From a virus, in the IMG/VR virus record IMGVR_UViG_3300020202_000114, positions 1 to 44,539 of that record: 44,539 bases of DNA. One strand, written 5' to 3'. The notes below the pieces were generated by a model. That model saw nothing but the letters and a program-made list of their open reading frames with translations, did not search any database and had not been told where the DNA came from. The position numbers and the translations under genes were made by a program. Below are positions 28,007 through 44,436 of the stretch, piece after piece. Numbering within the stretch: position 1 is the stretch's first letter; the number at the start of each line of letters is the position of its first letter.

Positions 28007-28027
28007 TTACTTCTCCATTAGAGGCTT

Positions 28028-29289: not shown

Positions 29290-29474
29290 TACTTTCTCCA
29301 GAACTCTTTAGCTAATTCCTTCGCCGCTTTGTCACCGCCGATTTTGTAGGCGCGGTCCAACATCGCTCTTTGGCGGTTCTTCGTATAACCGTTCGGATTC
29401 TCTGATTCTTTTTTTAAAACCTTCCGGCAGAATTCGTATTCTTTTACCGGATCGACATAACCTTTCTTACTCAC
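29289..29474 (-). CDS. 61-residue basic helical protein
   Basis: KKGYVDPVKEYEFCRKVLKK then RQRAMLDRAYKIGGDKAAKE: Lys/Arg-rich helices. Overlaps the upstream gene (ATGA). Function unknown. Confidence 0.6.
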   Translation of the reverse strand: MSKKGYVDPVKEYEFCRKVLKKESENPNGYTKNRQRAMLDRAYKIGGDKAAKELAKEFWRK

Positions 29475-29650
29475 TGTTGGTTCTCCTTGAAATACTCGGA
29501 CGCACCGTAGCTTCCGCTATCCATTGCTTCCTGACGCATATCACGGACACTGTATCCCGGTGCCTCTTTTTTTGGTGCTGGCTTTGGGGCCTCTTTTTTT
29601 AATCCGTTTTTAATACCCGCGATAATTTGTTTCGTGGTTAACTTAGCCAT
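29471..29650 (-). CDS. 59-residue basic protein
   Basis: MAKLTTKQIIAGIKNGLKKE with a Lys/Pro linker (APKPAPKKEAP) and an acidic tail. The start is set by GAGG six bases before ATG; an ATG six bases earlier is possible. Function unknown. Confidence 0.6.
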   Translation of the reverse strand: MAKLTTKQIIAGIKNGLKKEAPKPAPKKEAPGYSVRDMRQEAMDSGSYGASEYFKENQQ

Positions 29651-30071
29651 TGTCATCCTCTAGGAACGGGTTATAGATCGGAGCTTTTCTATCTAGTGCT
29701 TCTTCCTTTTTCTTTTGAGAGAGCTTTTCTCTAGCTGCGATGAAATCTTGTAGGCTGTTAAAAAAATCCATAAGAGCCTTTTGGTATCCTGCAACGAATA
29801 GAGGATTTTCGCCTTTCCAGTTCGAGGTAAGGGTTCCGTGCCAGTAGCGACCGTTCGTGAATCTACCTGAAACTCCGGCGATGGATTCTTGTAGAAGGGG
29901 GAACGCGATTTCCTGCCACGGCTTTGAATTGAAAAGCTCTTCAACGAGATTGCCGTTATAGCGGATAAGTGCTTCCGGTGAAGTTGGTTTATCTTCTGGC
30001 TGCGACTTTTGCGGCCCTGGGATCACCGAGGACGCCTTGCGAACCTGCCGCTTTTTGGGCTTTGATTCCAT
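29643..30071 (-). CDS. Late protein overlapping the portal gene
   Basis: About 142 residues from MESKPKKRQVRKASSVIPGP, with GGAG upstream. The N-terminus is basic and disordered. The core (ALIRYNGNLVEELFNSKPWQ, FPLLQESIAGVSGRFTNGRY) is helical and ends in charged residues. Its first 83 bases are read in another frame as the C-terminus of the portal, an unusually long overlap. Confidence 0.6.
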   Translation of the reverse strand: MESKPKKRQVRKASSVIPGPQKSQPEDKPTSPEALIRYNGNLVEELFNSKPWQEIAFPLLQESIAGVSGRFTNGRYWHGTLTSNWKGENPLFVAGYQKALMDFFNSLQDFIAAREKLSQKKKEEALDRKAPIYNPFLEDDNG

Positions 30072-32151: not shown

Positions 32152-32338
32152 TAGCGCCCTTTTCTAGGTCTTTCAAAAAATAGTAATAACAACGGATTGC
32201 GGCTCTCAGCCTTTCGCGATCCATGGCGAGTAACACCGTTTTTTCTGTGGAGCGGTCAAGATTTTCCTTGACACTCTCAGCCCAAAGAAGCTCTTTATCT
32301 ACCATGGCCCCCAAAACCATCTTATCGGTCAAGTCCAC
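32123..32338 (-). CDS. Small helical protein between TerL and portal
   Basis: 71 residues (TDKMVLGAMVDKELLWAESV, RERLRAAIRCYYYFLKDLEK), all helical. It overlaps the portal start by 29 bases and follows TerL by three bases. Function unknown. Confidence 0.6.
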   Translation of the reverse strand: MDLTDKMVLGAMVDKELLWAESVKENLDRSTEKTVLLAMDRERLRAAIRCYYYFLKDLEKGANANREKASN

Positions 32339-32341
32339 TAC

Positions 32342-33895
32342 TCACTCTAAAACATCCCCCCAGCGGCCATATTCTTCGCCCGACGGAACTTCTTCGTAAT
32401 GCATAACCTTTCGGACTCTTTCTTGTTGCTCAACCTCAAATCGTGAGTGCGTGTAGCTAAGACCTTCGATATTTAAGACCCAGGAATCGGCGCGGTCGGG
32501 GGAGGAGCCAACGGCGTCTTTTACTTCTTCTTTCGGAGTAACCCACATGCGCCCGTTGTCTTTTTTGTATTTATGGGCGTTGAGTTGACGCATCAGCGTG
32601 TAGTCGTCGTCAATCGCGACGTTGCCGGATTTCATCTTTTCCGCAGCTTCGCAGTAAACCTCGTCGCGACGGTTAAAGTATTTCACCGGGTTCTTGGCTT
32701 TTTGACGGGAATCAAACGCAACGATTTTTACATTCCGCTCGTTTTTACCGAGAAGATTCGTAACAACCGCAATTACGTCGTTTCCAATCGCATCGCAAAT
32801 AAAAACCTGGGCGTTGTATTTATGGATTAGCTGTACGGCTTCCGCCCCCAATTCTCCGGCGCTTGTTTTTCCAGCGATGATTTTCCTTGCGATAATATTC
32901 CCGTTATTACCGACATAAAACGGTGCTTCGTCCTCGCCCTGACCGGAGGGGTCTAGCGAAACCACAATCCGGTCACGGGACATGATCGGCTGGTTATGAA
33001 CGGCCTTTTTCATGTCATTAAAATTAAAAAGGATTCCTTCTTCCGAGCCTTCGTAGTTGATATCGAGTTCTTGTGCGATTTCGACTGGATCGTTGTTTCT
33101 GCGCTTACACTCGTTGTCATACCAGGCTTGGTCTTTTTCTGGATGGAGTTTCCAATGGAGTGATTTAACGTCAATGGCACCCGAGTGCCTAAGCTTCGCA
33201 AATTGGTTATTAAATCCATTCGGGGTACTGACAACAATGCGGCAGTTGGAAGAGTCGGCACTTGCTCTCCAGGCACTTTGGTCGCACTCCCAGAACGCGA
33301 ACTCGTCAAAAAAAATCGCTCGTCGTCTACCCCCTCGCGAGAAATTGTTATTCGTCGCTTCGCCAGTAATCGTAGCTTTACTTTCTGGATTAACCAGTTT
33401 CAGGTAGTTCGAGTGGTTTTTAGGGTCCCACCCTTTCGGGCGCATCCAGGCGGGTTCGTTACGGATAATAAAGCGCACCTTCTCGAGCAACGTGTCCATG
33501 TTTCCCATAACGTCGATGTACTGCTCCTTACGGGAACCAACGAGAAAATCAAACCCCTCACCCGCAAACTGCCAAAGCCAAGTAAAAACCAAAAGCACGC
33601 ACCACGTAACCCCCATATCACGGCTTTTGTCGATCAATAGGTCTTTTTGGTTTAGAACCCGATGGACCAATTCTCTAATCAGCTCGTCTTCGTATGGATA
33701 GGTAATGAATGGGATAGTGGACGGGTTCTTACGTGGGTTGTAGGTCGCAACGAAGCAGTTGGTCCAAAAGAGAATATCCGAACGGCAAAGATCCAAGACT
33801 GCGCCCTGAGCCACTGGATTGTTCGCGCACTTCATCATCAGTCTTAACCGGAAGTCCGCGTTCCCGGCGAAGTCTTTAGGGTACTTCTCAGTCAT
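32342..33895 (-). CDS. terL: Terminase large subunit
   Basis: 517 residues. The ATPase has a Walker A-like KSRDMGVTW (90-98) and Walker B IFFDE (194-198), with the coupling motif VVSTPNG (221-227). The RNase H-like nuclease has its first acidic residue in VVSLDPSGQG (D315), a second in FICDAIGND (D368) and a third near the C-terminus in SSPDRADSW. It packages DNA through the portal. Its ATG overlaps the upstream stop by eight bases. Confidence 0.93.
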   Translation of the reverse strand: MTEKYPKDFAGNADFRLRLMMKCANNPVAQGAVLDLCRSDILFWTNCFVATYNPRKNPSTIPFITYPYEDELIRELVHRVLNQKDLLIDKSRDMGVTWCVLLVFTWLWQFAGEGFDFLVGSRKEQYIDVMGNMDTLLEKVRFIIRNEPAWMRPKGWDPKNHSNYLKLVNPESKATITGEATNNNFSRGGRRRAIFFDEFAFWECDQSAWRASADSSNCRIVVSTPNGFNNQFAKLRHSGAIDVKSLHWKLHPEKDQAWYDNECKRRNNDPVEIAQELDINYEGSEEGILFNFNDMKKAVHNQPIMSRDRIVVSLDPSGQGEDEAPFYVGNNGNIIARKIIAGKTSAGELGAEAVQLIHKYNAQVFICDAIGNDVIAVVTNLLGKNERNVKIVAFDSRQKAKNPVKYFNRRDEVYCEAAEKMKSGNVAIDDDYTLMRQLNAHKYKKDNGRMWVTPKEEVKDAVGSSPDRADSWVLNIEGLSYTHSRFEVEQQERVRKVMHYEEVPSGEEYGRWGDVLE

Positions 33896-34061
33896 CGTCT
33901 TCTTCGTCGTAGTCCATCGCTAGGTGATAGAACTCGTGGATTGGCCCCGCATCGTGAGGATTAAAATGCGCCCATCGGATTTGTCCATCCGGGCACGTGT
34001 AGAGAAGTCCCCAGCCATCGGGGAACATCTTGTCCAGTATTTCTTGGTGGTCTTCTCTCAT
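33888..34061 (-). CDS. Small acidic-tailed protein upstream of TerL
   Basis: 57 residues from MREDHQEILDKMFPDGWGLL; the end is DYDEEDDD. The longer reading (from 34157) would overlap the Cys-rich gene in another frame, so the internal ATG five bases after that gene's stop is preferred. No clear ribosome-binding site is seen, which suggests translational coupling. Confidence 0.55.
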   Translation of the reverse strand: MREDHQEILDKMFPDGWGLLYTCPDGQIRWAHFNPHDAGPIHEFYHLAMDYDEEDDD

Positions 34062-34065
34062 GCGG

Positions 34066-34242
34066 TTAGCAGGTAATCTGATTCCAATACGGATAAATTG
34101 GGTAAAACGGGTAATAAGGATACCGATTGGATCTTCCACAACTAGGGCAGTACCCACACTGAGGGCAGTTCTGCTGATGATTGAGGCTGTTTAAATTTCC
34201 CTGCATTGAACTCAATGGTTCTGGCTTCCGATCATCAAGCAT
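34066..34242 (-). CDS. 58-residue Cys- and Tyr/Pro-rich protein
   Basis: MLDDRKPEPLSSMQGNLNSL leads to CPQCGYCPSCGR (26-37), two closely packed Cys pairs that probably bind one zinc ion. A tail of alternating Tyr and Pro (YPYYPFYPIYPYW, 41-53) follows. GAGGTG lies five bases before the ATG. Similar CPxCGxCPxCG proteins occur in many phages; their role is unknown. Confidence 0.65.
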   Translation of the reverse strand: MLDDRKPEPLSSMQGNLNSLNHQQNCPQCGYCPSCGRSNRYPYYPFYPIYPYWNQITC

Positions 34243-34605
34243 GAAGCACCTCGAATGTTAATAGAATAAATATATCTATACTAAAAAAATTGTACAAGTT
34301 GGGAGCGGATGATCTTATTAACACCCACCCCCGTCCAATCCTGGGGTACCCACCCCCTTAGACCTCCCTACACATACCTTTCTTTTCGCTTTACAGGCTT
34401 ATAGACGAACGATAGAGCTTCGGCCAATAGCTTGGTAGCACTTCTGGTCATTGAGTGCTATATGGCCTGTAATACGTCAATGTCCGATAATATTGGTTAT
34501 GGAGTTTATTCCGATCTAAGTATTTGTTGATAATAAAGGAGTTATAACAATTCGTTCTGTGTGACATAAGCTAATTCTGGATTATTGGCCATTGTTAGAC
34601 GAACT
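34243..34605. other. 363-base non-coding region between terminase genes
   Basis: No convincing gene on either strand. It contains an A/T-rich part (34250-34295), the palindrome TTGTACAA, two copies of ACCCACCCCC and scattered promoter-like words. Non-coding DNA beside terminase small subunit genes often holds the packaging initiation (cos/pac) site. I cannot show that here. Confidence 0.5.
34323..34357. repeat. Direct repeat ACCCACCCCC x2
   Basis: Two identical ten-base copies (34323-34332 and 34348-34357) start 25 bases apart. On the minus strand this gives four G runs (GGGGG, GGG, GGGGG, GGG), which could form a G-quadruplex. It lies in the candidate packaging region. Confidence 0.7.
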
Positions 34606-35088
34606 CTACATGTCCATTAACTCTCTGACCTTGTCCCATTTCTGTTCTGCGGATAGCTGGGTAATGTCGATCTTGTTCAGAATGAGCGTATTATTGGTGA
34701 TTTGCTGCGCTTGAGAGCTGGAATCTCCCTCTAATTCCTTCCTTTGGGCCTCAATGATGGCTACAAGTTCCTTTGCATCCTTCGGAGCGATTGTTTTTGG
34801 TGCCTTCTCCTCGCAGAGCTTGAGCCGTCTCCATCTCCTTGTCCTCTCAGCTTCACGATCTATCATAACCAAGTCTTTATGTTTCTTAACTATTTGGCTT
34901 ACTCTGACTTCTGAGATTCCGAACTCTTGAGCGATAGTCTTTAGGGTTGCGCCTTGCTTATACCTATCTAATAGCTTCTGATTTCTTTCGGAAGGGGCTT
35001 TAAAGGTTATTACTTTAGGGTGCGCGAGATTGGGTTGTTTTGAGGCTGAATTTTCTTCGTAGCTTACTTCGTCTGGATTGTTGTCCAT
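34606..35088 (-). CDS. Putative terminase small subunit (HTH)
   Basis: 160 residues. The HTH is at about residues 37-70 (LLDRYKQGATLKTIAQEFGI, SEVRVSQIVKKH). A basic linker (RTRRWRRLKL) and an oligomerisation-type helix (AKELVAIIEAQRKELEG) follow, and the C-terminus is WDKVRELMDM. The order DNA-binding, oligomerisation, C-terminal tail and the position at the head of the packaging genes fit TerS. A transcriptional regulator is the alternative. The ATG has no ribosome-binding site and lies six bases after a TAGAAT, so the message could be leaderless. Confidence 0.65.
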   Translation of the reverse strand: MDNNPDEVSYEENSASKQPNLAHPKVITFKAPSERNQKLLDRYKQGATLKTIAQEFGISEVRVSQIVKKHKDLVMIDREAERTRRWRRLKLCEEKAPKTIAPKDAKELVAIIEAQRKELEGDSSSQAQQITNNTLILNKIDITQLSAEQKWDKVRELMDM

Positions 35089-35179
35089 AGATTCATTCTA
35101 ACAATCTACTCAAGTAATAGTGTGTGAGTGCGCTTTTATCACTACTAATAGGAAACTTTTAAATAGTGAAAATAAGATA

Positions 35180-35208
35180 TTGACATACATCACTTGTACG
35201 TATATACT
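35180..35208 (+). promoter_or_regulatory. Strong sigma70-type early promoter
   Basis: TTGACA, exactly 17 bases, TATACT. The predicted transcript start is at or within two bases of the ATG at 35217, so the first message is effectively leaderless. It drives the rightward early operon. Confidence 0.85.
35197..35207 (+). promoter_or_regulatory. Operator-like element, half 1 (inverted partner at 35379-35389)
   Basis: TACGTATATAC overlaps the -10 box. Its exact reverse complement GTATATACGTA lies at 35379-35389, just downstream of the first gene. Inverted copies flanking a small ribbon-helix-helix gene suggest repressor sites, perhaps with looping. Confidence 0.6.
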
Positions 35209-35216
35209 CTCAATGT

Positions 35217-35357
35217 ATGAAGAAGAAATTGACACTTACTGTTGACGAGCAAGTGATTATCGACGCGAAGAAAAAAGCTCTCGATGATCGAAAGGAACTA
35301 AGCGAAGTGACCGAGAAGTTATATCAAGCGTATGTGAGGGGAGAAGTAAAGCTGTAG
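35217..35357 (+). CDS. 46-residue ribbon-helix-helix regulator
   Basis: MKKKLTLTVDEQVIIDAKKK then ALDDRKELSEVTEKLYQAYV shows the fold plainly: a basic beta strand (KLTLTVDE), helix A, a turn and helix B. Such Arc/MetJ-type proteins act as dimers with the paired strand in the DNA major groove. It is the first early gene, with a promoter-overlapping operator-like site and no ribosome-binding site. Autoregulation and control of the early or late switch are likely (inference). Confidence 0.7.
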   Translation: MKKKLTLTVDEQVIIDAKKKALDDRKELSEVTEKLYQAYVRGEVKL

Positions 35358-35404
35358 ATTTTTTTTAAGTTAGTGGGTGTATATACGTATAAGGAGTGCG
35401 CGAG

Positions 35405-35464
35405 ATGTTTATTCCGATGTGGCTGATTGTGGCAGTGGTGATTTGGTGGATTTTAGAAGATTAG
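35405..35464 (+). CDS. 19-residue membrane peptide
   Basis: MFIPMWLIVAVVIWWILED is one hydrophobic helix. AAGGAG precedes it, and a GTGCGCG motif fills the space between the ribosome-binding site and ATG. Very short, so uncertain. Confidence 0.4.
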   Translation: MFIPMWLIVAVVIWWILED

Positions 35465-35492
35465 TTGTGCGCGAAAAAGGGGAGGGAAGACG

Positions 35493-35687
35493 GTGAGAAT
35501 TAAGTTTGATTGCGGCCATGAAGCGGAAGTAAGTGAGACGAGCGCTAAGCTTCACTCTCTGCGTAAAAGCTTCAGCTTGTGTGCCGCTTGCTCGCCGGTC
35601 GCCGGTTACGAAGGTTTTAAGACTGCGGATAGACGATATAGAGCCGCAGTAAATAGGGCTAAGCGTAAGGGGAGGGAAGAGGAATGA
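35493..35687 (+). CDS. Small Cys protein
   Basis: 64 residues from a GTG after GGGGAGGGAAG. CGH, CAAC and a basic C-terminus (RYRAAVNRAKRKGREEE). Possible zinc-binding nucleic-acid protein. The stop overlaps the next start. Confidence 0.6.
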   Translation: MRIKFDCGHEAEVSETSAKLHSLRKSFSLCAACSPVAGYEGFKTADRRYRAAVNRAKRKGREEE

Positions 35688-35884
35688 TTATGAGTGCGCG
35701 TGAAGAATGGCGAGTGTCTGACACGAAACGCAAGCTTAATAACGGCTCTCCGCTTGGTACTTGGGTTGAGTTATGGAGAGACGGACAGCTTGTCGGCAAG
35801 CGCTTGGTTAACGCCGGGAAGCCTTCGGATATCGAATGGGCTAAGCGTGATATTCTCGAAGACCCGAAAGCGATAGACCTGTGA
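35684..35884 (+). CDS. Small early protein
   Basis: 66 residues with RVSDTKRKLNNGSPLGTWVE, LWRDGQLVGKRLV: beta strands followed by a helix. The ATG overlaps the previous stop; an ATG six bases later has better spacing to GAGG. Family not recognised. Confidence 0.6.
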   Translation: MIMSAREEWRVSDTKRKLNNGSPLGTWVELWRDGQLVGKRLVNAGKPSDIEWAKRDILEDPKAIDL

Positions 35885-35991
35885 CCGACATAGACAAGCT
35901 CGTCTATAGGTACTATCACGACCCTGTATTAAATGACTGGTCTGATTTGGTGTGCGCGTTGCGCGAACTGACCAGGAAAGGAGGAGCCTAA
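35881..35991 (+). CDS. 36-residue early peptide
   Basis: GTG overlapping the previous stop; VTDIDKLVYRYYHDPVLNDW then SDLVCALRELTRKGGA, helical. Its last codons supply GGAGG for the next gene. Translational coupling is likely. Confidence 0.5.
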   Translation: MTDIDKLVYRYYHDPVLNDWSDLVCALRELTRKGGA

Positions 35992-36129
35992 ATGCCTATG
36001 TACACCTTTAAGGTATTGGTTGACGGTGCGCCGCTGATCGATGAGAGTTATTATTTAGATTCGGAATTAAGGGCTTTGGAGTATATTGAATCTAAGGTGA
36101 AAAGAATAAGGCGGTTCTATGAAAGGTAG
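35992..36129 (+). CDS. 45-residue early peptide
   Basis: The ATG follows the previous TAA directly, with AAGGAGGAG upstream. Beta strands (YTFKVLVDGAPLIDESYY) then a basic helix ending ESKVKRIRRFYER. The last 13 residues are closely matched by the micro-ORF at 36520-36564. Confidence 0.55.
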   Translation: MPMYTFKVLVDGAPLIDESYYLDSELRALEYIESKVKRIRRFYER

Positions 36130-36274
36130 TAAATTCGATACGACGATCTTATTGGCGCTACTATCAATCGCCAGAGAAAACGAGAAGTATGATGCAAACA
36201 AATCGTATAAGCTGATTAAGCGGACGCATGATCAGATTATGAAATACATTAAGGCTCACGGGTTTAAAGAATAA
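36119..36274 (+). CDS. 51-residue basic helical peptide
   Basis: MKGSKFDTTILLALLSIARE followed by a basic helix (YKLIKRTHDQIMKYIKAHGF). It overlaps the previous gene by 11 bases without its own clear ribosome-binding site. Function unknown. Confidence 0.5.
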   Translation: MKGSKFDTTILLALLSIARENEKYDANKSYKLIKRTHDQIMKYIKAHGFKE

Positions 36275-36296
36275 AGCAGTTTTATAGGGGTTAATT

Positions 36297-36527
36297 ATGG
36301 GTGCGCGAAAAGCTAAGGTTGGTTGTTCGGTGTGCCGCAGTAAGACATTTCTACCGCCATGCAATCTTCACGCCGCCGGGCCTTTATTCTACAAGGCGGC
36401 GAAGACTTGGCTAGCGCATTACGACGAGTTTGTGAAGCTTAAGGGGATTGGGGACGAGGCTGGAATAGCTGAGTTACGCCATGCAGTTGCAATCGCTGAG
36501 GGGAAAGAACAGCTATACAATGACTGA
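36297..36527 (+). CDS. Small Cys protein beginning in a GTGCGCG motif
   Basis: 76 residues. The start ATG is followed at once by GGTGCGCGA, so the motif encodes residues 2-4 (GAR). CSVC plus a third Cys and a His follow (CRSKTFLPPCNLH), then a helix. AGGGG lies seven bases upstream. Possible zinc finger. Confidence 0.6.
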   Translation: MGARKAKVGCSVCRSKTFLPPCNLHAAGPLFYKAAKTWLAHYDEFVKLKGIGDEAGIAELRHAVAIAEGKEQLYND

Positions 36528-36564
36528 GTCTAAGATCAAGAGAATTAAACGGTTTTATAATTAG
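36520..36564 (+). pseudogene. Micro-ORF copying the tail of the 35992 gene
   Basis: MTESKIKRIKRFYN matches ESKVKRIRRFYER at the end of the earlier gene, and the underlying bases are alignable over about 39 positions. It is either a decayed duplication or a tiny coupled ORF; its start overlaps the previous gene. Confidence 0.4.
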
Positions 36565-36574
36565 GGGTGCGCGA

Positions 36575-36805
36575 ATGACTCTAAAAGATGATCTTCACAA
36601 CGTAACGAATAGATATATTACGAAGTCAAAAGAATCGAACGCGGTAAAGCTTCAGAACGTAAGCAACGCGCTATTAACCGAATTGTCATATACGATGGCA
36701 TTCACGGCGCACGAGCTAAACATGCCGCTCAAGAAGATCATCGAAATGCACGTTAAAGCTCTTAAGAAAACTACACCGTTTAAGTGCGGTGAGTGCGCGA
36801 AGTGA
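36575..36805 (+). CDS. Small helical early protein with C-terminal CxxC
   Basis: 76 residues, mostly helical (NAVKLQNVSNALLTELSYTM, AHELNMPLKKIIEMHVKALK), ending FKCGECAK. AGGGG and GTGCGCG directly precede the ATG. The final codons carry another GTGCGCG and overlap the next start. Confidence 0.6.
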   Translation: MTLKDDLHNVTNRYITKSKESNAVKLQNVSNALLTELSYTMAFTAHELNMPLKKIIEMHVKALKKTTPFKCGECAK

Positions 36806-36897
36806 AATGCCCGCATTGTAGGTCTGAAAGGTATTTGGTTGACGTAGGTTATTTGTTTTGCCCTGATTGTAAGTTTTACGAGAACTTGGCGCGTTAA
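36802..36897 (+). CDS. 31-residue zinc-ribbon microprotein
   Basis: GTG overlapping the previous stop. CPHC (3-6) and CPDC (20-23) make a minimal four-Cys zinc ribbon. Tight overlap and regular Cys spacing support real coding despite the size. Confidence 0.5.
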   Translation: MKCPHCRSERYLVDVGYLFCPDCKFYENLAR

Positions 36898-36925
36898 ATC
36901 GCGCTCACATAGGAGGAAATAAGGG

Positions 36926-37126
36926 GTGCGCGAAAAGCAATCGAGTAAAGAGAATTGGTACGATCAGTGCGCGAACCTGATCGCGAAGTATAGAAATAAG
37001 ACCGAAAGCGATATAAACGAGCATTTTGAAGTACTTAATCAGATATGCAAAATCCTTTCTAAAAATGGATTCCTTGATGATGATTGGTGGTGTGAAAACG
37101 AAAGATATCAAGCACACGACAAATGA
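36926..37126 (+). CDS. Small early protein starting within the GTGCGCG motif
   Basis: 66 residues. The start codon is the GTG of GTGCGCGAAAAG, after AAGGGG. Helices (YDQCANLIAKYRNKTESDIN, FEVLNQICKILSKNGF) end in an acidic Trp pair. Function unknown. Confidence 0.6.
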   Translation: MREKQSSKENWYDQCANLIAKYRNKTESDINEHFEVLNQICKILSKNGFLDDDWWCENERYQAHDK

Positions 37127-37308
37127 AACGCATGATCGTTGGAAAGTTATTACAAATTAGTGATATGGGCACTCCGGTTTACTTCTTCAAAGTTAAGATC
37201 GGGAAGACATTTTATAGAGCGGTTTTCTCCACTAAAAACAACAAGCCGCGCCTAGAAATGATTGATGCAGACGATTTGAACGGAAGAATCCCTAATGCGA
37301 ATTCATAA
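37123..37308 (+). CDS. Small beta-rich early protein
   Basis: 61 residues with strands VGKLLQISDMGTPVYFFKVK, IGKTFYRAVFSTKNN, suggesting a small barrel. ATGA overlap with the previous stop. Family not recognised. Confidence 0.6.
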   Translation: MKRMIVGKLLQISDMGTPVYFFKVKIGKTFYRAVFSTKNNKPRLEMIDADDLNGRIPNANS

Positions 37309-37525
37309 GGAGTGCCTGACTTGCGAGTGTAAGGAGCCAATCCGTATTTGTGCGTTTTGCAAGCAAGTTATTGAAAAGAACCATAAAAGAGAGTATTTCC
37401 AGATGAGGGGCCGCAACCATTATTTCTTTCATCAGCCGTGCTGGAAGCGAATAATAAGTTTGGTCTACCACGACAGAAAGCGATTTTTTAAAACAAATAA
37501 ACTACGCACAAATGAATTCCGCTAA
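37295..37525 (+). CDS. Zinc-finger-like early protein
   Basis: 76 residues with CLTCEC, CAFCKQ and HQPC (residues 7-49), followed by a basic tail. Two Cys pairs plus a His/Cys pair resemble a treble-clef or PARP-type finger arrangement in outline only. Confidence 0.6.
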   Translation: MRIHKECLTCECKEPIRICAFCKQVIEKNHKREYFQMRGRNHYFFHQPCWKRIISLVYHDRKRFFKTNKLRTNEFR

Positions 37526-37697
37526 ACAACACGCAACCTATATCCTAGAGAACGGAAAAGAAGTGGTGTGCGGGACATGCTACTGCGAGAGAAGGCAGAA
37601 TCATTTTAGGTTGTGCGCGGACTGTAAGAAGCCGGTGATTGGCACATGGAGATTGAATAGGCTCGGTGAATATACTTGCTGCGGAGACACAAATTGA
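37512..37697 (+). CDS. Zinc-ribbon early protein
   Basis: 61 residues: CGTCYC, CADC and CC near the end, with basic linkers. Probably binds zinc. Its 3' end overlaps the next start (TTGA). Confidence 0.6.
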   Translation: MNSAKQHATYILENGKEVVCGTCYCERRQNHFRLCADCKKPVIGTWRLNRLGEYTCCGDTN

Positions 37698-38104
37698 TAC
37701 GTGCTTGCGCCTGGTGCAATAAAGAAATAGGGAGCAAGGAACCACTAGAGGACAACTCCATCACGCATACCATATGTGAGGAGTGCCGAAAAAGAATAGA
37801 AAAGGAACGCGATAACATTTATACTCGAGTGGTTGAAAGTGAAAACCTCGCTCTTCATAGACCGCCATGTGAAGGATTTGGGGAAGAAACGCGCTATCGA
37901 TCTTCGGAAAAGCTTCTCGTCTTACGTCGAATTTTTAATATCGAAGGACGTCAAGAAGCCGAAGAAAAAATAACCCATTCCAACCATTCAAATTTTTATC
38001 CATCATTCGGTAATTACCGACTTTCTATTTTCTTAAAGATAAAGCTTGACACCTTTTTTAGGATTGTTAAGAATGCGTGGTTACGTTTAAGACCGCTTAG
38101 CTAA
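37694..38104 (+). CDS. Zinc-ribbon protein with doubtful C-terminal extension
   Basis: From a TTG seven bases after GGAG. MIRACAWCNKEIGSKEPLED and ICEECRKRIEKER give two Cys pairs (CAWC, CEEC), a sound zinc ribbon over about 45 residues. The frame stays open for 90 more codons, but that part looks unlike protein, overlaps a better gene in another frame (37833-37973) and covers a promoter and palindrome. A lost stop or frameshift is possible. Confidence 0.5.
   Translation: MIRACAWCNKEIGSKEPLEDNSITHTICEECRKRIEKERDNIYTRVVESENLALHRPPCEGFGEETRYRSSEKLLVLRRIFNIEGRQEAEEKITHSNHSNFYPSFGNYRLSIFLKIKLDTFFRIVKNAWLRLRPLS
37833..37973 (+). CDS. Second 46-residue ribbon-helix-helix protein
   Basis: TTG start (or GTG six bases later, with GAGTGG upstream): MKVKTSLFIDRHVKDLGKKR then AIDLRKSFSSYVEFLISKDV and a Lys/Pro tail. 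The strand KTSLFIDR, helix A and helix B with the polar turn match the fold, and the length equals that of the 35217 protein. It lies in a different frame from the preceding ORF, just upstream of a palindrome and promoter. Confidence 0.6.
   Translation: MKVKTSLFIDRHVKDLGKKRAIDLRKSFSSYVEFLISKDVKKPKKK
38007..38020. promoter_or_regulatory. Perfect 14-bp palindrome, operator-like
   Basis: TCGGTAATTACCGA is self-complementary over all 14 bases. It lies 26 bases upstream of a TTGACA box and between two DNA-binding protein genes, as an operator would. Confidence 0.65.
38046..38074 (+). promoter_or_regulatory. Promoter for the HTH regulator
   Basis: TTGACA followed, at 17 bases, by AAGAAT (TAAGAA at 16). 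The -35 is perfect, the -10 weak, so activation or repression is plausible. Confidence 0.55.
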
Positions 38105-38111
38105 GTCCGCA

Positions 38112-38199
38112 ATTGTTAGAGTGCGCGTTTTAAATCGGCCTATATCTAATTAGGCGCAAACTAACAATAAAAAAGAGGCGGTTTAGACGATCTGAACCG
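38112..38199 (+). promoter_or_regulatory. Structured 5' leader of the HTH gene
   Basis: ATTGTTAG (38112-38119) can pair with CTAACAAT (38161-38168), with TGCGC/GCGCA inside; the TGCGC strand is part of a GTGCGCG motif. Next, CGGTTTAGA (38179-38187) pairs with TCTGAACCG (38191-38199), ending six bases before the ATG. The second hairpin could limit ribosome access. Confidence 0.5.
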
Positions 38200-38205
38200 G
38201 ATGCG

Positions 38206-38559
38206 ATGTTATTAGTAAATGGTGATACGGTAAAAGCGTGGTTGAAATCGATCAACAAAAATCAACAGTGGCTCGCTGATATGTACGGGTGCAACAAATC
38301 GTACGTGAGTCAGATTCTAAATAATGGGTGCGCTGTCTCGGGGAATTTCGTCGGATTTCTCATGCACATCACGCACATGGATTTTTGGCAACTCTTTCAA
38401 TATTTCAATGAACCGGATTGCCGAAAATTTTACGGAAAAGAAGTTTCGATGAACGGACAGATCATGCCGAGAGAGACGTATTATAAGCTCATTGAATCGC
38501 GCATTAAGCATAGAAAAATACTTGATAAATATGTTGACAAGGTCCGTGAAACGGTTTAA
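38206..38559 (+). CDS. HTH regulator (XRE-like)
   Basis: 117 residues. VKAWLKSINKNQQWLADMYG and CNKSYVSQILNNGCAVSGNF (residues 9-48) form a Cro/CI-type HTH with the recognition helix around NKSYVSQIL. The C-terminal half is helical and may dimerise. Promoter, palindrome and leader hairpins upstream suggest regulated expression. It may control the early genes or the lytic enzyme that follows. Confidence 0.7.
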   Translation: MLLVNGDTVKAWLKSINKNQQWLADMYGCNKSYVSQILNNGCAVSGNFVGFLMHITHMDFWQLFQYFNEPDCRKFYGKEVSMNGQIMPRETYYKLIESRIKHRKILDKYVDKVRETV

Positions 38560-38765
38560 ATTTGTTGCAATCTGTTTAATCATGCTCTGTGAGATGAGGA
38601 AAAGTAAGGCGTTTGGATGCGTTGATGGCGGCTGTTTTGGGGCCGCCTTTAAGCAGGCTTAGTGCTTAACATAAGGTATCCTATTTACCTTAAACGACTT
38701 ACGTCAATTCTGACTTAATCGAAAGTTAAGTCAGCCCTCAACTCACGAGCATATCTCAAAGGGAT
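38560..38765 (+). other. Non-coding region with a series of hairpins
   Basis: GGCGGC (38627-38632) pairs with GCCGCC (38642-38647), followed by TTTAAG: a weak terminator. Next are AAGCA/TGCTT (38651-38667), TAAGGTA/TACCTTA (38672-38692), TGACTTAA/TTAAGTCA (38711-38733) and AGCATATC/GATATGCT (38748-38770). The last encloses the start of the lytic enzyme gene. No gene seen. Confidence 0.65.
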
Positions 38766-39185
38766 ATGCTTGTGGGAAATTCAAAGCTCCACAATAAGAC
38801 ATATAAGGCCGTATTAAGCCTTCTTGTAGCCCTCCTTGTGCAGTGCCCAATATCATGGGCGAAATCAGAACCCTCCCGCTGGCTAGTCACGGCTTACTGC
38901 GCTTGCAAGAAGTGCTGCGGTCCCAAAGCTAAAGGCATTACCGCTTCCGGTAAGCGCGTCAAACCGGGCTATATTGCTTTAAACTGGCTCCCCTTCGGCA
39001 CCAAGGTATTAATCAACGGCAAGCCCTATGTCGTTGAAGATCGCGGCGCTGAATCCCTCTTTGGAACGTATTACCACCGCAAGCAAATCAAATCCCGCAT
39101 TAAACACATCGATATTTACATGCCGTCACACTCGGATGCTTTGCGCTTTGGGAAGCAGTACCTACCAGTGGAGATACTTAAATGA
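38766..39185 (+). CDS. Exported 3D-domain lytic enzyme (probable endolysin)
   Basis: 139 residues. A hydrophobic segment (AVLSLLVALLVQCPISWA, about 15-32) is a signal peptide or signal anchor. The rest is a 3D (double-psi barrel) domain: VTAYCACKKCCGPKAKGITA, VKPGYIALNWLPFGTKVLIN, VVEDRGAE, KHIDIYMPSHSDAL and LPVEIL, with the conserved aspartates in EDRG and HIDIYM. Related domains occur in MltA-type lytic transglycosylases and resuscitation factors, so peptidoglycan cleavage in the periplasm is likely. ATG at 38766 or GTG at 38772; AAGGG is better spaced to the latter. Confidence 0.8.
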   Translation: MLVGNSKLHNKTYKAVLSLLVALLVQCPISWAKSEPSRWLVTAYCACKKCCGPKAKGITASGKRVKPGYIALNWLPFGTKVLINGKPYVVEDRGAESLFGTYYHRKQIKSRIKHIDIYMPSHSDALRFGKQYLPVEILK

Positions 39186-39379
39186 GACTCAAAAACTCGG
39201 ACGTTATTTTCCGCATGGTTTGTAAGCACTGTCACGCTCAGTTTTGGTTTGCGCTTGGTGATCGGTATTCCTGGGATCACGCAAAGGCCGCTTACTACTC
39301 GTTTAAGCTTGATTTCCACTCACACAAGATGGATTGCCTGAATAAAAAAATGGAGTCCATCTTAAATGTCAATTCGTAA
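39182..39379 (+). CDS. Small Cys/His protein
   Basis: 65 residues with CKHC (about 14-17), then HSHKMDC near the C-terminus, a plausible C2HC zinc site. ATGA overlap with the lytic enzyme stop. Function unknown. Confidence 0.6.
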   Translation: MRLKNSDVIFRMVCKHCHAQFWFALGDRYSWDHAKAAYYSFKLDFHSHKMDCLNKKMESILNVNS

Positions 39380-39560
39380 CCTTTTCATGGACCGGGAATT
39401 TAAAAACGATTCCACGTTCTTTACTTGGTTCTACGACAACGAAGAGGATTTGAAGAACGATTACCTAGACGAGTATTGGTACAAGGACATCGATCTAAAG
39501 GATAAGGCTGAATATAGAAAATTCTTTAACTGGTGTCAGGATTGGTATTTCTGTGAGTGA
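39366..39560 (+). CDS. Small acidic aromatic protein
   Basis: 64 residues, very rich in Asp, Glu, Trp, Tyr and Phe (FFTWFYDNEEDLKNDYLDEY). Such acidic aromatic microproteins can mimic DNA or bind host enzymes (for example anti-restriction proteins), but this is only a composition-based idea. Confidence 0.55.
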   Translation: MSIRNLFMDREFKNDSTFFTWFYDNEEDLKNDYLDEYWYKDIDLKDKAEYRKFFNWCQDWYFCE

Positions 39561-39639
39561 GTGCGCGATCTGCATGCGTTTAACGTATGAAGTTATTTGC
39601 TGGGACTGTATTCGGGAGGGCTTGCGCCAATGGGGTTAG
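39553..39639 (+). CDS. 28-residue Cys-pair peptide
   Basis: From GTG inside the previous gene's end: CAIC (4-7) and CWDC (16-19) make a minimal zinc ribbon. GTGCGCG encodes its Cys-Ala. Overlaps the next gene by ten bases. Confidence 0.45.
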   Translation: MSECAICMRLTYEVICWDCIREGLRQWG

Positions 39640-40445
39640 TGGTTGAACCGATTCTTCAGTTTTTAAGTAAGGACGATTCAACGATTGATGATTGGATTGC
39701 GCGGCAGTATGGCTATCTCGCTGAATATTCCATGAAGCGCCAGTTCTCGAAAAAAGAAAACGGTCCTGTCTTAAGGTTCTCGGGGTGCGGCAAACGCGCA
39801 CGACAGATTGCCTATGAGTATCACGGCTTCCAGGCTAACGGTAAAACGCAAGATTCTCGCTCTAAGATTGTTTTCCTCTACGGCGATCTTCTTGAAGCTC
39901 TGATTGTCTCCCTCGCCAAAGCCGCCGGGGTTCAGATAACCGCCTGCGGTTTAGACCAAAAAAAGATCTCGCTCGAAATTGAGGGCGTTCAGATTAACGG
40001 GCACCCAGACGGACTCATTATTACCAATCCCATTCATACGTTTGAGTGCAAATCCATGTCCTCTTTCGGATATGGAGAGTTTGAGCGCGGCAATATCTCG
40101 CATGAATACTTGGTCCAAGTGAATCTCGGGATGGAAGCTCTGGGGCTTGATAGATGCGTCTTCGTTGCGATTGAAAAAGAGTCTGGGGTTATGAGTGAGC
40201 GCATCGTTCATAAGGACGAATCCATTATTGAGTGGGTAAGGCAGAATGTATCAAAAGTAATACATTCGACACCTGACAACCTTCCCGAGCGTTGCTTCAC
40301 TCCGAACGAAAAGGGCTTCTACCCGTGGCAGTGCGTCTATTGCAAGTTCTACAAAACCTGTCTCGTGGAACCCGGTCTCGCAAAGATTGAAGTCGTTAAA
40401 AACGCTAACAAATTAAAAGCCATTCAAGTGGAGGCCGCACTCTAA
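39630..40445 (+). CDS. Cas4/RecB-like PD-(D/E)XK nuclease
   Basis: 271 residues from an ATG nine bases after GGGAGGG. FSGCGKRARQIAYEY supplies the first Cys. GHPDGLI (about 132-138) and TFECKSM (about 145-151) are the PD-(D/E)XK core, followed by the QVNLGMEALG helix. CVYCKFYKTC supplies three more cysteines, so an iron-sulphur cluster as in Cas4 and AddB is expected. The likely role is end resection for recombination. No Cas1/Cas2 or CRISPR array is present. Confidence 0.85.
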   Translation: MGLVVEPILQFLSKDDSTIDDWIARQYGYLAEYSMKRQFSKKENGPVLRFSGCGKRARQIAYEYHGFQANGKTQDSRSKIVFLYGDLLEALIVSLAKAAGVQITACGLDQKKISLEIEGVQINGHPDGLIITNPIHTFECKSMSSFGYGEFERGNISHEYLVQVNLGMEALGLDRCVFVAIEKESGVMSERIVHKDESIIEWVRQNVSKVIHSTPDNLPERCFTPNEKGFYPWQCVYCKFYKTCLVEPGLAKIEVVKNANKLKAIQVEAAL

Positions 40446-40513
40446 TGGACCCCAACAAAGAAGCAGAATTAACTCTTCATTATCAGTACGAGGAAAAAAT
40501 CAATGAAGAATGA
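40445..40513 (+). CDS. 22-residue peptide
   Basis: TAATG-coupled to the nuclease; MDPNKEAELTLHYQYEEKIN then EE, acidic helix. Its end overlaps the next tiny gene. Low certainty because of size. Confidence 0.35.
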   Translation: MDPNKEAELTLHYQYEEKINEE

Positions 40514-40586
40514 AATCGACGCTTTAATCCGCGCACTCGAAATCTTATACCCACAACAAGCACGAATCGTAGAGGAGAAAAAATGA
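40503..40586 (+). CDS. 27-residue helical peptide
   Basis: MKNEIDALIRALEILYPQQA then RIVEEKK, one amphipathic helix. Its last codons provide GAGGAG for the next gene, with an ATGA overlap. Confidence 0.4.
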   Translation: MKNEIDALIRALEILYPQQARIVEEKK

Positions 40587-41101
40587 ACCTAACGTATCCA
40601 TTCGGAAAAGATAAACCGGGTTCTCAATTCGGGAAGCCGCTCTCGGAGGTTCCGAATAAGTCCTTGGAGTTTTTGATTAAAGCTTGCTCAGAGTCATTAA
40701 ACGACCCAGAGAAAGCAAAGTTCTCGGCACGTAATAGGGAACTAATTAACGCCGCTAAGAGCATCTTGATTGCTCGTTTAAACGGCGAGCCTGGTCCGGC
40801 ACCCAAACCCGCACCCATGATCAAAGGCTCAGACATTCAAGAGTACGACTCCAAAACAGACCAGTACACGCTAAAAGAAGACGTTAGAAAGCATTTCAAT
40901 CCGCCAGCACCCACAAGCCAGTCAAAGCTGGGGGAGATGATTCTTGCTGAAACAAAATCGACAAAAGCGATGGTAGGCGAATCTCTCACGAAGATAAATA
41001 GGATGATCGCAATAATCGAGCGCTCGCTCGGAAACATGCACTCCCAGCCGGTATCAGACATTCCGGGCACCCAAGAAGAACCCTTTAATGACCAGTTCTA
41101 A
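40583..41101 (+). CDS. DUF3820-like protein with disordered tail
   Basis: 172 residues. FGKPLSEVPNKSLEFLIKAC (about 16-35) followed by RNRELINAAKSILIARL resembles the small domain found in DUF3820 and exonuclease X C-termini. A Pro-rich linker (EPGPAPKPAPM) and a helical C-terminal half follow. Adjacent to the Cas4-like nuclease, so a recombination partner is plausible. Similarity is modest. Confidence 0.6.
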   Translation: MNLTYPFGKDKPGSQFGKPLSEVPNKSLEFLIKACSESLNDPEKAKFSARNRELINAAKSILIARLNGEPGPAPKPAPMIKGSDIQEYDSKTDQYTLKEDVRKHFNPPAPTSQSKLGEMILAETKSTKAMVGESLTKINRMIAIIERSLGNMHSQPVSDIPGTQEEPFNDQF

Positions 41102-41327
41102 GAAAACCTTCTTAGAAATGCTTCATGAGTGCCACTCCGAAATGGAGTCTCGCTCTGAAGCGTTTAAGAAGCTCTCCGGTAAGGACCGCTCCGACATAGG
41201 GTTCTACTGGGAGGGTTTCGGCTCATTCCCAAAGAAGACCCCGTTCTATCTCTTAAACACGAACGGATTAGATTTTGAAGACATACAGACAGTTGCTCGG
41301 ATTCATAAGGAAATGTTCGGAGAGTAA
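41088..41327 (+). CDS. Small early protein
   Basis: 79 residues: helices at both ends (TFLEMLHECHSEMESRSEAF; FEDIQTVARIHKEMFG) around FYWEGFGSFPKKTPFYLL. It overlaps the previous gene by 14 bases and directly precedes the structured RNA region. Family not recognised. Confidence 0.6.
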   Translation: MTSSKKTFLEMLHECHSEMESRSEAFKKLSGKDRSDIGFYWEGFGSFPKKTPFYLLNTNGLDFEDIQTVARIHKEMFGE

Positions 41328-41341
41328 AGAGTCGTAGACGT

Positions 41342-41496
41342 ACGGCGGGTGTTTTAGATTTCCTGACCCGAACTCAGGAGAAGCGGCCTAGATAAGCCGC
41401 ACCCTATAACCAATTGTCCAGCCTATACCAGCGAGAGGGCATATCGCGGACAAGCCCAGAGCGGGGAATACACCTACCCGTCGTCCGGGCCGACGA
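41342..41496 (+). ncRNA. Candidate multibranched structured RNA, class unknown
   Basis: A closing stem ACGG/CCGT plus GGGTGT/ACACCT (41342-41352 with 41470-41481) encloses several stems. TCCTGA/TCAGGA is at 41361-41379. GCGGC/GCCGC is at 41383-41400. TTGTCC/GGACAA (41414-41419 with 41448-41453) contains an abutting GCGA/TCGC stem. A short CCC/GGG follows. TCGTC/GACGA (41481-41496) lies outside. I recognise no riboswitch, ribozyme or known phage RNA family. Confidence 0.6.
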
Positions 41497-41585
41497 TTGG
41501 AGTACGGTCAAAACGAACACGGCGTAAGTAGAACGAAATTCGGTTCGGCGCGCCAAAATCATTTTTAGGCATTAGTTTTACTGTT

Positions 41586-41625
41586 CTGAGTAGAAAAAGC
41601 CTGAATACAGGCGAGAAAGACTCAG
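41586..41625 (+). promoter_or_regulatory. Two-tier hairpin at a ribosome-binding site
   Basis: CTGAGT/ACTCAG encloses a 7x7 A/G-rich internal loop and then GCCTG/CAGGC with an AATA loop. The 3' strand runs straight into AGGAAG, the ribosome-binding site of the 30-codon ORF, so folding could control translation. Confidence 0.6.
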
Positions 41626-41634
41626 GAAGTACCT

Positions 41635-41727
41635 ATGCCCAAGAGTTTATTAGTGGTGGACTTCCACGGAGGTAAAAGTTTTATGAAAGTGGCGAATGGA
41701 CCCACTCAAGCTACGAAGGATTGCTGA
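41635..41727 (+). CDS. 30-residue leader-like peptide
   Basis: MPKSLLVVDFHGGKSFMKVA then NGPTQATKDC. AGGAAG lies six bases before the ATG, the best ribosome-binding site in this stretch. It overlaps the next gene's start by 32 bases, so it may act as a coupling or leader peptide. Confidence 0.45.
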   Translation: MPKSLLVVDFHGGKSFMKVANGPTQATKDC

Positions 41728-42085
41728 CCGGATGGTTGAATTATCGCGTGAGATTTATGAGTTTTGCGAAGACATTGAAAAAGAGAAACCGAAAGAACGA
41801 ATGATCGACTGGTGGTGCGTGAGTTATAAGGAAAAATTTGGGCGCGACTACATTGTGACGAGCTACGACAAGTCCTGCGGCATCCTAAAAACTTTAAGAA
41901 CAAAGCTTGGCGAAGATGGTCTAAAAGACCTTTGTAAGAAGTATTTCGACTATGACGATGAGTGGGTGAAGAAACAAGCCCATAGCATCGAAGCGCTCCC
42001 TGCCGTAGTCAACCGAATCCGCGCACACCAAGCCGCAAGCTCACTAGAAAAGTTCTACAAAAAGGGGGTAAACCATGCTTCCTAA
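41696..42085 (+). CDS. Helical early protein, possibly replication-related
   Basis: 129 residues: LKLRRIADRMVELSREIYEF helix, then DWWCVSYKEKFGRDYIVTSY with KTLRTKLGEDGLKDLCKKYF, outlining a small winged-helix-like fold. This arrangement recalls N-terminal domains of phage replication proteins, but there is no recognised motif. It overlaps the next gene by 11 bases. Confidence 0.55.
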   Translation: MDPLKLRRIADRMVELSREIYEFCEDIEKEKPKERMIDWWCVSYKEKFGRDYIVTSYDKSCGILKTLRTKLGEDGLKDLCKKYFDYDDEWVKKQAHSIEALPAVVNRIRAHQAASSLEKFYKKGVNHAS

Positions 42086-42512
42086 CCCAGATAGTCCGGT
42101 AGCAAGGATCTGTCTCGCGCTCTACTACGACTTTATGGGGAAAAAAATATCTAAAAAAGAATTTGTCGTAGGTCTAGCTTACGCCCAAGTTAGAGAAGAG
42201 TGCTTACTGGAAATGCGCCCGGAGAGCGAGCCGCTCCCCACCGAAGAAATCATCTCCATCTTAAACGCCAGTCCCAGAGAAAAAGAAAAGATCGATTGGA
42301 GAGCGGAGCCTATTTTTTCGTACTTAAACAACCTTCACCGAGTCAGGAATAAGAACAAGGCAACAAAAGAAAGGCTGGAATGGGCTAAACAACGAATACC
42401 GCTCTCAGATGCAGAAACGCACAAGAAGATAGACGAACACCTAAGCATGTTCGGAGTCCGAATCGCGCACCACGAATCTTACTTAGATAAATCCATAAAG
42501 GAGGTCGCTTGA
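42075..42512 (+). CDS. Helical early protein
   Basis: 145 residues, all helical (PVARICLALYYDFMGKKISK, EEIISILNASPREKEKIDWR, FSYLNNLHRVRNKNKATKER). AAGGGGG precedes the ATG. Partnered with the previous gene by overlap; the pair might form a replication or packaging-regulation complex (inference). Confidence 0.6.
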   Translation: MLPNPDSPVARICLALYYDFMGKKISKKEFVVGLAYAQVREECLLEMRPESEPLPTEEIISILNASPREKEKIDWRAEPIFSYLNNLHRVRNKNKATKERLEWAKQRIPLSDAETHKKIDEHLSMFGVRIAHHESYLDKSIKEVA

Positions 42513-42840: not shown

Positions 42841-42915
42841 ATGATCTACGTCTTCTCCTGGCTTCTGGTGTGCGCGGTTATTCTTATGTGGTGGAAAGGA
42901 AAGTCGCGCACATGA
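42841..42915 (+). CDS. 24-residue membrane peptide
   Basis: MIYVFSWLLVCAVILMWWKG then KSRT. One hydrophobic helix. Its codons carry GTGCGCG and, near the end, CGCGCAC. Overlaps the next gene by four bases. Confidence 0.45.
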   Translation: MIYVFSWLLVCAVILMWWKGKSRT

Positions 42916-43334
42916 AAAAGAAAAAGGTAAAGAAGCTCTCCCAGACCAAGCTTTTAAGAAAATACGAACCAGAGTTAAGAGACATCATCATTAAAAGAGA
43001 CGGGAATAAGTGCGTGATAGCTGGGTACAGGCATAAGTGTAGTGCGCGGCTTGTGGCTGATCATAGGCCTTCGGGAAGGAAGAACCATAGCACCTTCCTA
43101 GATCCGCGCAATCTTTCCACGGTCTGCGCCACGGCCAATATGCTCGCCCAATGGGACGATTTTATTAGTGCGGCAATCAGGGTTGAGGTGATGCAAAGAG
43201 AGGGTGCCGGAATCATCGAGGAATTAGAGAAGCTTTCGCGCACTCCTAAAAAGTGGGATGAGCTTTCAATTCGCGCACACCTGGACAACTGTAAACGTTA
43301 TTTTTTGAAGAATAAATCTGGGTGCCCAGAATGA
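42912..43334 (+). CDS. NinG/HNH-like recombination protein
   Basis: 140 residues from an ATG with AAGGAAAG eight bases upstream. IIIKRDGNKCVIAGYRHKCS, ARLVADHRPSGRKNHSTFLD, PRNLSTVC follow the beta-beta-alpha-metal order with DH and the Asn of HNH nucleases. The C-terminus (MQREGAGIIEELEKLSRTPK, then CKRYF) is close to lambda NinG (Rap). NinG-type proteins resolve or process recombination intermediates. The last His of canonical HNH is not obvious. Confidence 0.7.
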   Translation: MKKKKVKKLSQTKLLRKYEPELRDIIIKRDGNKCVIAGYRHKCSARLVADHRPSGRKNHSTFLDPRNLSTVCATANMLAQWDDFISAAIRVEVMQREGAGIIEELEKLSRTPKKWDELSIRAHLDNCKRYFLKNKSGCPE

Positions 43335-43495
43335 CTGAATTTAGTGAATTCGAGAAGAAACTAGCCGTCAAGATTGCAAATTTCATCTTATTCGCTTTTG
43401 TAGTCTCGTCTCTTTATATCGTTTTTGGATTCGAGAAGACGGTTATAGCTGTACTTCCTGTCCTGCTTTTAAACGCAATATCTATCTTTGATTGA
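43331..43495 (+). CDS. 54-residue double-pass membrane protein
   Basis: Charged N-terminus (TEFSEFEKKLAVK), then two helices, IANFILFAFVVSSLYIVFG and VIAVLPVLLLNAISIF. ATGA overlap with the previous gene. Function unknown. Confidence 0.55.
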   Translation: MTEFSEFEKKLAVKIANFILFAFVVSSLYIVFGFEKTVIAVLPVLLLNAISIFD

Positions 43496-44206
43496 GTGAC
43501 CGCACCTATGAATAAAGAAAAAGATTGCTCGATCTGTAACCCCAAACCAGAAGCTCCCGAGGCACCTATGACCAAATACCACGAATTAACGGAAAGGATT
43601 TGGAGATCAGATGACGATACTTACAATTTTAAGCATCGTCTTGACTCCCTCATCCGAGAATACATTGAGGGGTGCGCGGAGGAAATAAGAGAAAGTTACG
43701 GACTACAAGCTGGAAGTCAACTTGTCGGTAGAAGATACCTTCATCAAATCCTCGGTCTCTCAACAGAATCTTTAAGCGCCGCAGGCACGCCTTGTGAGAA
43801 TTGTGATAGAAGAGAGCCCGGTGCTTCTATTTTCTTAACAGGAAGCAAAGATATTAAACAATCTAAGTGCATTAAATGCGGCAAAAATTATTCTGACATC
43901 TTTAAACCACAAGGAGCCAATCCAGTGAGTGAGAAAGAGTGGTGCTCGCACTACAAATTGAATGAGAGAACGAACTGGTACGAAAGAGAAGCCAATGTTG
44001 GAAGTGGCGTATTTAATTGTGTTGTCCATCATCAGGATAAGTTTTGTGCAGTTTGCGGAAAAGAAAAGCCGCGCACCCCAACCGAACAAGAGGAGCTTGC
44101 AGCTAAGTTTAGAGAGTTTCTGCCTTACGCTGGAAGTGACATGAACCTAATGAGCCTTGCTGAAATCGCCCTCACCTGGTTCCACGAACGGGAGAAGAGG
44201 AAATGA
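43496..44206 (+). CDS. Multi-zinc-finger early protein
   Basis: 236 residues from GTG; ATG at 43508 or at 43568 (GAGG upstream) are alternatives. Cys pairs: CSIC, CENC, CIKC and CAVC, with CSHY in between, around helical segments (KHRLDSLIREYIEGCAEEIR, EQEELAAKFREFL). Probably binds several zinc ions. Its last 12 residues are shared with the fragment at the left end of the window. Confidence 0.6.
   Translation: MTAPMNKEKDCSICNPKPEAPEAPMTKYHELTERIWRSDDDTYNFKHRLDSLIREYIEGCAEEIRESYGLQAGSQLVGRRYLHQILGLSTESLSAAGTPCENCDRREPGASIFLTGSKDIKQSKCIKCGKNYSDIFKPQGANPVSEKEWCSHYKLNERTNWYEREANVGSGVFNCVVHHQDKFCAVCGKEKPRTPTEQEELAAKFREFLPYAGSDMNLMSLAEIALTWFHEREKRK
44167..44206 (+). repeat. 40-bp direct repeat, copy 2 (pair at 60-99)
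   Basis: Identical to 60-99, ending in the stop of the multi-zinc protein and the start of the 77-codon gene. Left border of the variable cassette. Confidence 0.85.
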
Positions 44207-44436
44207 GCGAAGACGTTTGCTTTCTAATCACAGTCTTAAATGAAGATCGACTTCTGAGGTGCGCGTTAAAGGTTAAACGCGATTCTTTGAGCGGTGACGT
44301 AATTGATTACCCAATGGAACCAGAAAATCGAGAGCAGCTTTATAAGCTCTTACCGCTGCACGTTCAGTCGTGCGGCCCAATTGTCGATGTTGAGGGAATC
44401 TTTGAGGTCGCGCACACACGGGAGAAGAAGGGATGA
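44203..44436 (+). CDS. Small early protein, alternative cassette gene
   Basis: 77 residues: VCFLITVLNEDRLLRCALKV, VIDYPMEPENREQLYKLLPL, GPIVDVEGIFEVAHTREKKG. A small alpha/beta fold of unknown role. It occupies the position that the ASCH gene holds on the other branch, and the two share only start-site bases and the last residues. Confidence 0.6.
   Translation: MSEDVCFLITVLNEDRLLRCALKVKRDSLSGDVIDYPMEPENREQLYKLLPLHVQSCGPIVDVEGIFEVAHTREKKG

Follow-up and report, generated by a model that had tools for sequence, protein, structure and literature searches.

GTGCGCG, a short polar DNA word in two related phage genomes, and its possible Chi-like role

Escherichia coli Chi is recognised from its 3′ side, and lactococcal Chi is the word GCGCGTG. 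Among lambdoid phages, those that lack recombinases carry Chi in excess, concentrated in the interval from the replication genes to the terminase; T5, a virulent phage, also over-represents the Chi of its host (PMC3784561).

Here we describe a word, GTGCGCG, that stands in large excess in a viral DNA stretch of 44,539 nucleotides (IMG/VR record IMGVR_UViG_3300020202_000114), hereafter the window. Like lactococcal Chi, it has seven bases, is G/C-rich with one T and is polar, but it is that site read backwards, a distinct site, and the backward word occurs at chance in the window (3 and 1 copies were counted). It resembles the Chi of recombinase-less lambdoid, T5- and P1-like phages in being a short, G-rich, asymmetric word in strong excess, found also in coding DNA, dense in the interval between replication gene and terminase and accompanied by no detected recombinase, whereas it differs in sequence, in density (about 1.2 per kb over the whole window against about 0.2 per kb reported for those phages), in a polarity opposite to the one expected for entry at the packaging end, and in a density that stays about equal or rises past the replication gene (PMC3784561). 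Cluster A stoperators are likewise tens of asymmetric, genome-wide sites whose words differ slightly among related phages, but they span 13-14 bases, lie along transcription and are bound by a lysogeny repressor, whereas GTGCGCG has 7 bases, an orientation independent of transcription and no associated sign of lysogeny (PMC6550527, PMC9283540). The SAS of Cluster K mycobacteriophages share with GTGCGCG that they are short and asymmetric, recur in non-structural genes and in part lie at start codons, yet they almost always sit a few bases before starts, while most GTGCGCG sites lie elsewhere (PMC3203893). The word departs in orientation from the stoperators, which are oriented with transcription (PMC6550527), and in position from start-associated sequences, which are located before starts. 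A search of the published literature for GTGCGCG returned unrelated texts only.

Abundance of GTGCGCG in the window and its relatives

GTGCGCG occurs 54 times in the window against 4.4 expected, about 12 times chance, and the maximum reached in dinucleotide shuffles was 9. This excess was absent from the initial annotation, which had described a strand switch, and it is the larger finding of the two. The word is sharp: its one-mismatch neighbours are found at about chance in the window, with GTGCGCC as a clear exception (12 vs 3.8 expected), while GTGTGCG (16 vs 3.4 expected) largely reflects overlap within GTGTGCGCG. Flanks of the copies are nearly random, with a weak preference for GG 2-3 bases 5′ and for A or G directly 3′, and the lack of any longer common flank indicates that the copies are not duplicated repeats. 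GTGCGCG is a short, exact, asymmetric DNA word, as Chi is. Its density reaches 2.1-3.5 sites per kb in early DNA versus 0.58 per kb in late DNA, where all 18 sites fall inside coding sequence; non-coding DNA is not enriched among the early sites either (6 of 36, against 10.3% non-coding, p = 0.16, with a gene list partly drawn by hand).

A terL search revealed a phage family with related structural genes, in which an excess of the word was found in two members, the window and the genome G010 (44,248 bases, circular with a 127-base end repeat, terL 72% identical to that of the window). The G010 word is looser, GKGCGCS, with observed over expected counts of 23/3.5 for GTGCGCG, 19/3.8 for GGGCGCG and 16/3.6 for GTGCGCC. 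Among 19 large or complete related genomes scored under a codon-preserving control, GTGCGCG in the window ranked top; the other tested records held few GTGCGCG copies or counts resembling the backward control. G008, many of whose structural proteins resemble those of the window more closely than the G010 proteins do (87% vs 77% for the capsid protein), has zero copies. The window is a mosaic, with many structural genes nearer to G008 and with several early genes and the word common with G010. Searches for relatives through the helix-turn-helix protein, the exonuclease and a late-region protein (12053-13585) brought no further phages, and none of the relatives found through the replication initiator carried GTGCGCG; the very high word scores that we inspected among these initiator-based relatives were mostly tandem or low-complexity coding repeats.

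At alignable late sites, the word is absent from most homologous positions in the relatives. Site 31691 changes FSKTI to FSRTI, in contrast to the lysine found in 13 of 14 relatives, site 10179 changes I[KE].PK to IRAPK, and site 4851 changes FREQL to FRAQL, the last against one relative only. Judged by these alignments, the late sites appear to be mostly specific to the window and recently gained, in some cases at positions where the residue is conserved elsewhere. At 17312, 19405 and 31812, all late sites, the homologous place in G010 reads GGGCGCG, the form of that genome, and the small-terminase site 35020 reads GTGCGCG in both genomes; since the C form also occurs at 31812 and 19405 in one or two word-poor relatives, the G010 matches at these two positions alone prove little.

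These data also bear on whether the word has any function. An excess and polarity arising merely from codon use, amino-acid composition or repeats is scarcely credible to us: synonymous codon shuffling of the late window genes leaves 1.15 + and 1.1 − sites against 13 and 5 observed, and the nearly random flanks and the mostly wordless homologous positions in relatives speak against it, although codon use does account for part of the late polarity of G010. Chance or codon use as the source of the word was rejected by the dinucleotide and synonymous-codon shuffles and is largely refuted.

Strand polarity along the genome map

The blocks of sites and the genes on the window map are as follows.

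4851..35026, mostly +: late (leftward) region with sparse sites, 13:5 (+:−) when counted over 4301-35099
35020..39567, +: 13 consecutive GTGCGCG sites, exact matches, from the small-terminase gene into the early operon (35020, 35396, 35467, 35694, 35952, 36301, 36567, 36793, 36926, 36967, 37613, 38121, 39561)
39795..42470, −: four consecutive sites, exact matches (39795, 40530, 42020, 42464), the switch of the initial annotation
42870..44415, 4 + and 5 −: mixed sites of the distal early region, exact matches
1057..3731, 4 + and 7 −: mixed sites of the distal early region past the contig join, exact matches
32342..33895, −: terminase large subunit (phrog_5989, E = 4.7e-16)
34606..35088, −: probable terminase small subunit, a putative function based on matches to HTH families and a place just upstream of terL
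38206..38559, +: XRE-like helix-turn-helix protein (phrog_1468, E = 4.9e-07)
39597..40445, +: PD-(D/E)XK-type exonuclease (phrog_1990, E = 1.2e-26)
41696..42085, +: possible replication-initiator gene, by position only, just upstream of 42075-42512
41328..41634, no strand assigned: non-coding, about 300 bases in which no ORF was judged to be a gene, speculatively an origin region

The end of the window (44408-44539) repeats positions 652-783 with 131 of 132 bases identical, which makes the genome a closed circle of about 43.76 kb. The first 650 bases, which hold an ASCH-domain gene, seem to represent another allele of 44207-44407, and 46-99 resembles 44153-44206; the allele at 652 is without the GTGCGCG site that is present at 44409 in the other. 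Two 46-residue proteins encoded at 35217-35357 and 37833-37973 resemble small ribbon-helix-helix regulators, the first matching DUF6364 and an Arc-like repressor profile. At 42870-42911, GTGCGCG and its complement, 28 bases apart, flank the ribosome-binding site before an ATG at 42912, and the pair could form a 7-base-pair RNA stem.

The initial annotation had counted 25 GTGCGCG and 5 CGCGCAC between 4.8 and 39.6 kb, with 8 and 16 on the arc that runs from 39.7 kb through the contig join to 3.8 kb; we reproduced these counts exactly, together with the flanking pair at 39561 (+) and 39795 (−). The proposed strand switch at 39.7 and about 4 kb is real at those breakpoints (Fisher p = 2.5e-4), yet it amounts to a modest bias and not to a clean flip, since a runs test on strand order is not significant (p = 0.37); the stretch from 42.5 to 3.8 kb is mixed in polarity. 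The strand distribution does differ from chance in sign permutations that re-chose the best arc every time and thereby corrected for breakpoint choice (p = 0.0064 with 5000 and 0.0053 with 3000 permutations), the best arc being 17312-39561, with 22:2 inside versus 11:19 outside.

Turning points of GC skew, read from the detrended cumulative curve, match this pattern in part: the turn at 4,678 fits the switch near 4 kb, whereas the other lies at 34,988 and none is found at 39.7 kb. Both turns, at about 35.0 and 4.7 kb, are changes of gene direction, and in G010, likewise, skew turns only at gene-direction boundaries. The switch near 4 kb, said to lie close to the converging arms, indeed coincides with the convergent gene boundary and the skew turn, and for this reason a replication end is indistinguishable there from a gene-direction boundary. 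The 39.7 kb switch falls at the start of the exonuclease gene, and here the claim that transcription direction does not explain it holds: early genes run rightward on both sides and late genes leftward, so neither transcription nor early-gene codon use can account for the change of polarity.

The probable small-terminase gene has a homologue at the corresponding position in both G010 and G008, and we took it to mark the packaging end of the early genes. The possible initiator at 41696..42085 owes its assignment to the homologue of 42075-42512, which follows the initiator gene in G010; a direct comparison of 41696..42085 with the G010 initiator gave no homology. Speculatively, 41328-41634 might be an origin or encode an RNA, and 41.3-41.7 kb gave no Rfam match and no origin-type repeats. 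From the small-terminase gene to the putative initiator the window has 12:2 (+:−) sites versus 8:14 in the distal early genes (p = 0.0057), and its late genes hold 13:5; in the distal early genes each orientation by itself far exceeds chance. On the genome map the word of G010 points the same way (scan p = 0.0027), with 19:0 from terminase to initiator versus 8:8 in the distal early genes (p = 0.00055) and the same gene direction on both sides. The late genes of G010 hold 20:3 sites of the looser word, or 21:3 in the count set against 8.9:2.9 after codon shuffling, so codon use explains part of this late-gene polarity. Between terminase and initiator there are 2.1-2.3 sites per kb versus 0.58-0.79 in late genes, and the far side of the initiator is equally dense or denser.

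The suggestion that polarity is tied to a replication origin or end is thus partly supported: in G010 the polarity is lost at about 24.4 kb, just past an initiator gene with a good match (phrog_9474, E = 7.5e-43), but in the window the 39.7 kb switch comes some 2 kb short of the putative initiator and meets no skew turn. In both phages the orientation of the word is tied to the DNA and not to transcription, as that of Chi is, and the data support GTGCGCG as a selected, polar DNA word with a polarity independent of transcription.

Polarity and placement also bear on an action in RNA, associated with starts as the SAS of Cluster K mycobacteriophages are, which we regard as very unlikely. Certain + sites of the early region overlap a ribosome-binding site or a start codon (ATGGGTGCGCG at 36297, AGGAGTGCGCGAGATG at 35396), and ATGGGTGCGCG recurs in G010 before a different protein. 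However, the enrichment of + sites at starts is only weak (4 of 20 within −20 to +10, uncorrected p = 0.045) and is absent from G010, SAS lie almost all at starts in one orientation (PMC3203893), and an RNA signal should not take opposite senses in late versus early transcripts.

A phage DNA-binding protein or a polar guide as alternatives

The main rival explanation is that the sites bind a phage protein, for example the XRE-like protein, silencing or blocking transcription at numerous points along the genome as Cluster A stoperators do, which we judge rather improbable. This protein is the best candidate reader because, among the phages examined, only the two word-bearing ones have it; the G010 homologue is 44% identical with a similar recognition helix (SYVSQI and SYISQI), and the words of the two phages are similar and not identical, but other early genes are also common to the window and G010. 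Its structure model is of low confidence (mean pLDDT 62.8), too weak for a structure search. XRE dimers usually bind palindromes, at odds with the asymmetric GTGCGCG. Site number and asymmetry are stoperator-like, site 38121 lies between the promoter-like sequence and the start of the helix-turn-helix gene, and for 7 of 16 early − strand sites a start codon follows at a distance of 10-60 bases (uncorrected p = 0.001); against this, every late site is coding and the early ones are not enriched between genes. Stoperators, moreover, follow transcription (PMC6550527), whereas the dominant orientation of GTGCGCG runs against it among the late genes and with it among the first early genes. No tyrosine integrase was found in the window or G010, and a terL profile run against 84,980 bacterial and archaeal genomes gave 299 pattern hits and no relative, hence no sign of lysogeny. 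An alignment search with the metallophosphoesterase found no bacterial host genome.

A polar guide, whether for a KOPS-like translocase or for packaging, or else a replication-priming signal, would agree with a polarity that is independent of transcription and changes near the replication gene. We nevertheless consider it unlikely: no FtsK-type translocase was found in the window, where a weak match at 41088-41327 (E = 0.027) is below the cut-off, and the far higher density in early than in late DNA is unlike an even guide. We know of no terminases with dispersed guide words.

Recombination genes and the Chi-like reading

We searched the window and G010 for annealing recombinases and found no match to Sak4, RecT, ERF or Rad52 types, while exonucleases are present in both. 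The nearest word-less relatives with the early region included, G006 and G008, encode a Sak4-like annealing protein together with an exonuclease. The contrast of word present and recombinase absent is one of two phages versus two, and five further relatives (G011, G013, G022, G023 and G037) have neither a detected Sak4, RecT, ERF or Rad52 nor GTGCGCG; these phages may have different hosts, whose words differ. Under the codon-preserving control, it was not evident that Sak4-less relatives in general each possess a polar word. In G023 (L057, L117-L119; no detected Sak4), CCTGGAC occurs 38 times versus 11.3 in that control, 27:11 by strand and genome-wide, and could be another such word.

Taken with the excess of the word, its sharp definition, an orientation that does not follow gene direction, the polarity in G010 and the residue gains, the lack of a detected annealing recombinase points to GTGCGCG as a Chi-like word for the recombination enzyme of a host, a reading to which we give an even chance. 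We infer the enzyme, its host and its direction, as well as the positions of the origin and the packaging site. A host helicase-nuclease of the RecBCD or AddAB type would enter phage DNA at a free end, and the word, met in its active orientation, would switch the enzyme from degradation to recombination, by which a phage without its own annealing recombinase might protect its DNA and build concatemers for packaging. Under the 3′-side rule of E. coli, the dominant sites would act on and halt an enzyme that starts at the replication gene and heads for the terminase and through the late genes. That direction would fit a leftward-growing rolling-circle tail; lambda-like entry at the packaging end would need the opposite polarity. 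It is unlikely that the word is instead of another kind, neither Chi nor a repressor site, which was recently written in at dozens of places, conserved structural-protein residues included, and which guides a DNA-tracking enzyme of a new kind by marking direction relative to the replication gene.

Rapid gain of sites within one lineage, combined with words that are related but not identical in two relatives, would allow the evolution of this kind of word to be traced directly. If Chi-like, the word would be a tag of the recombination enzyme of the host and could identify that host by matching phage and chromosome words, and the link between a missing recombinase and Chi, known from lambdoids, would extend to uncultured phages.
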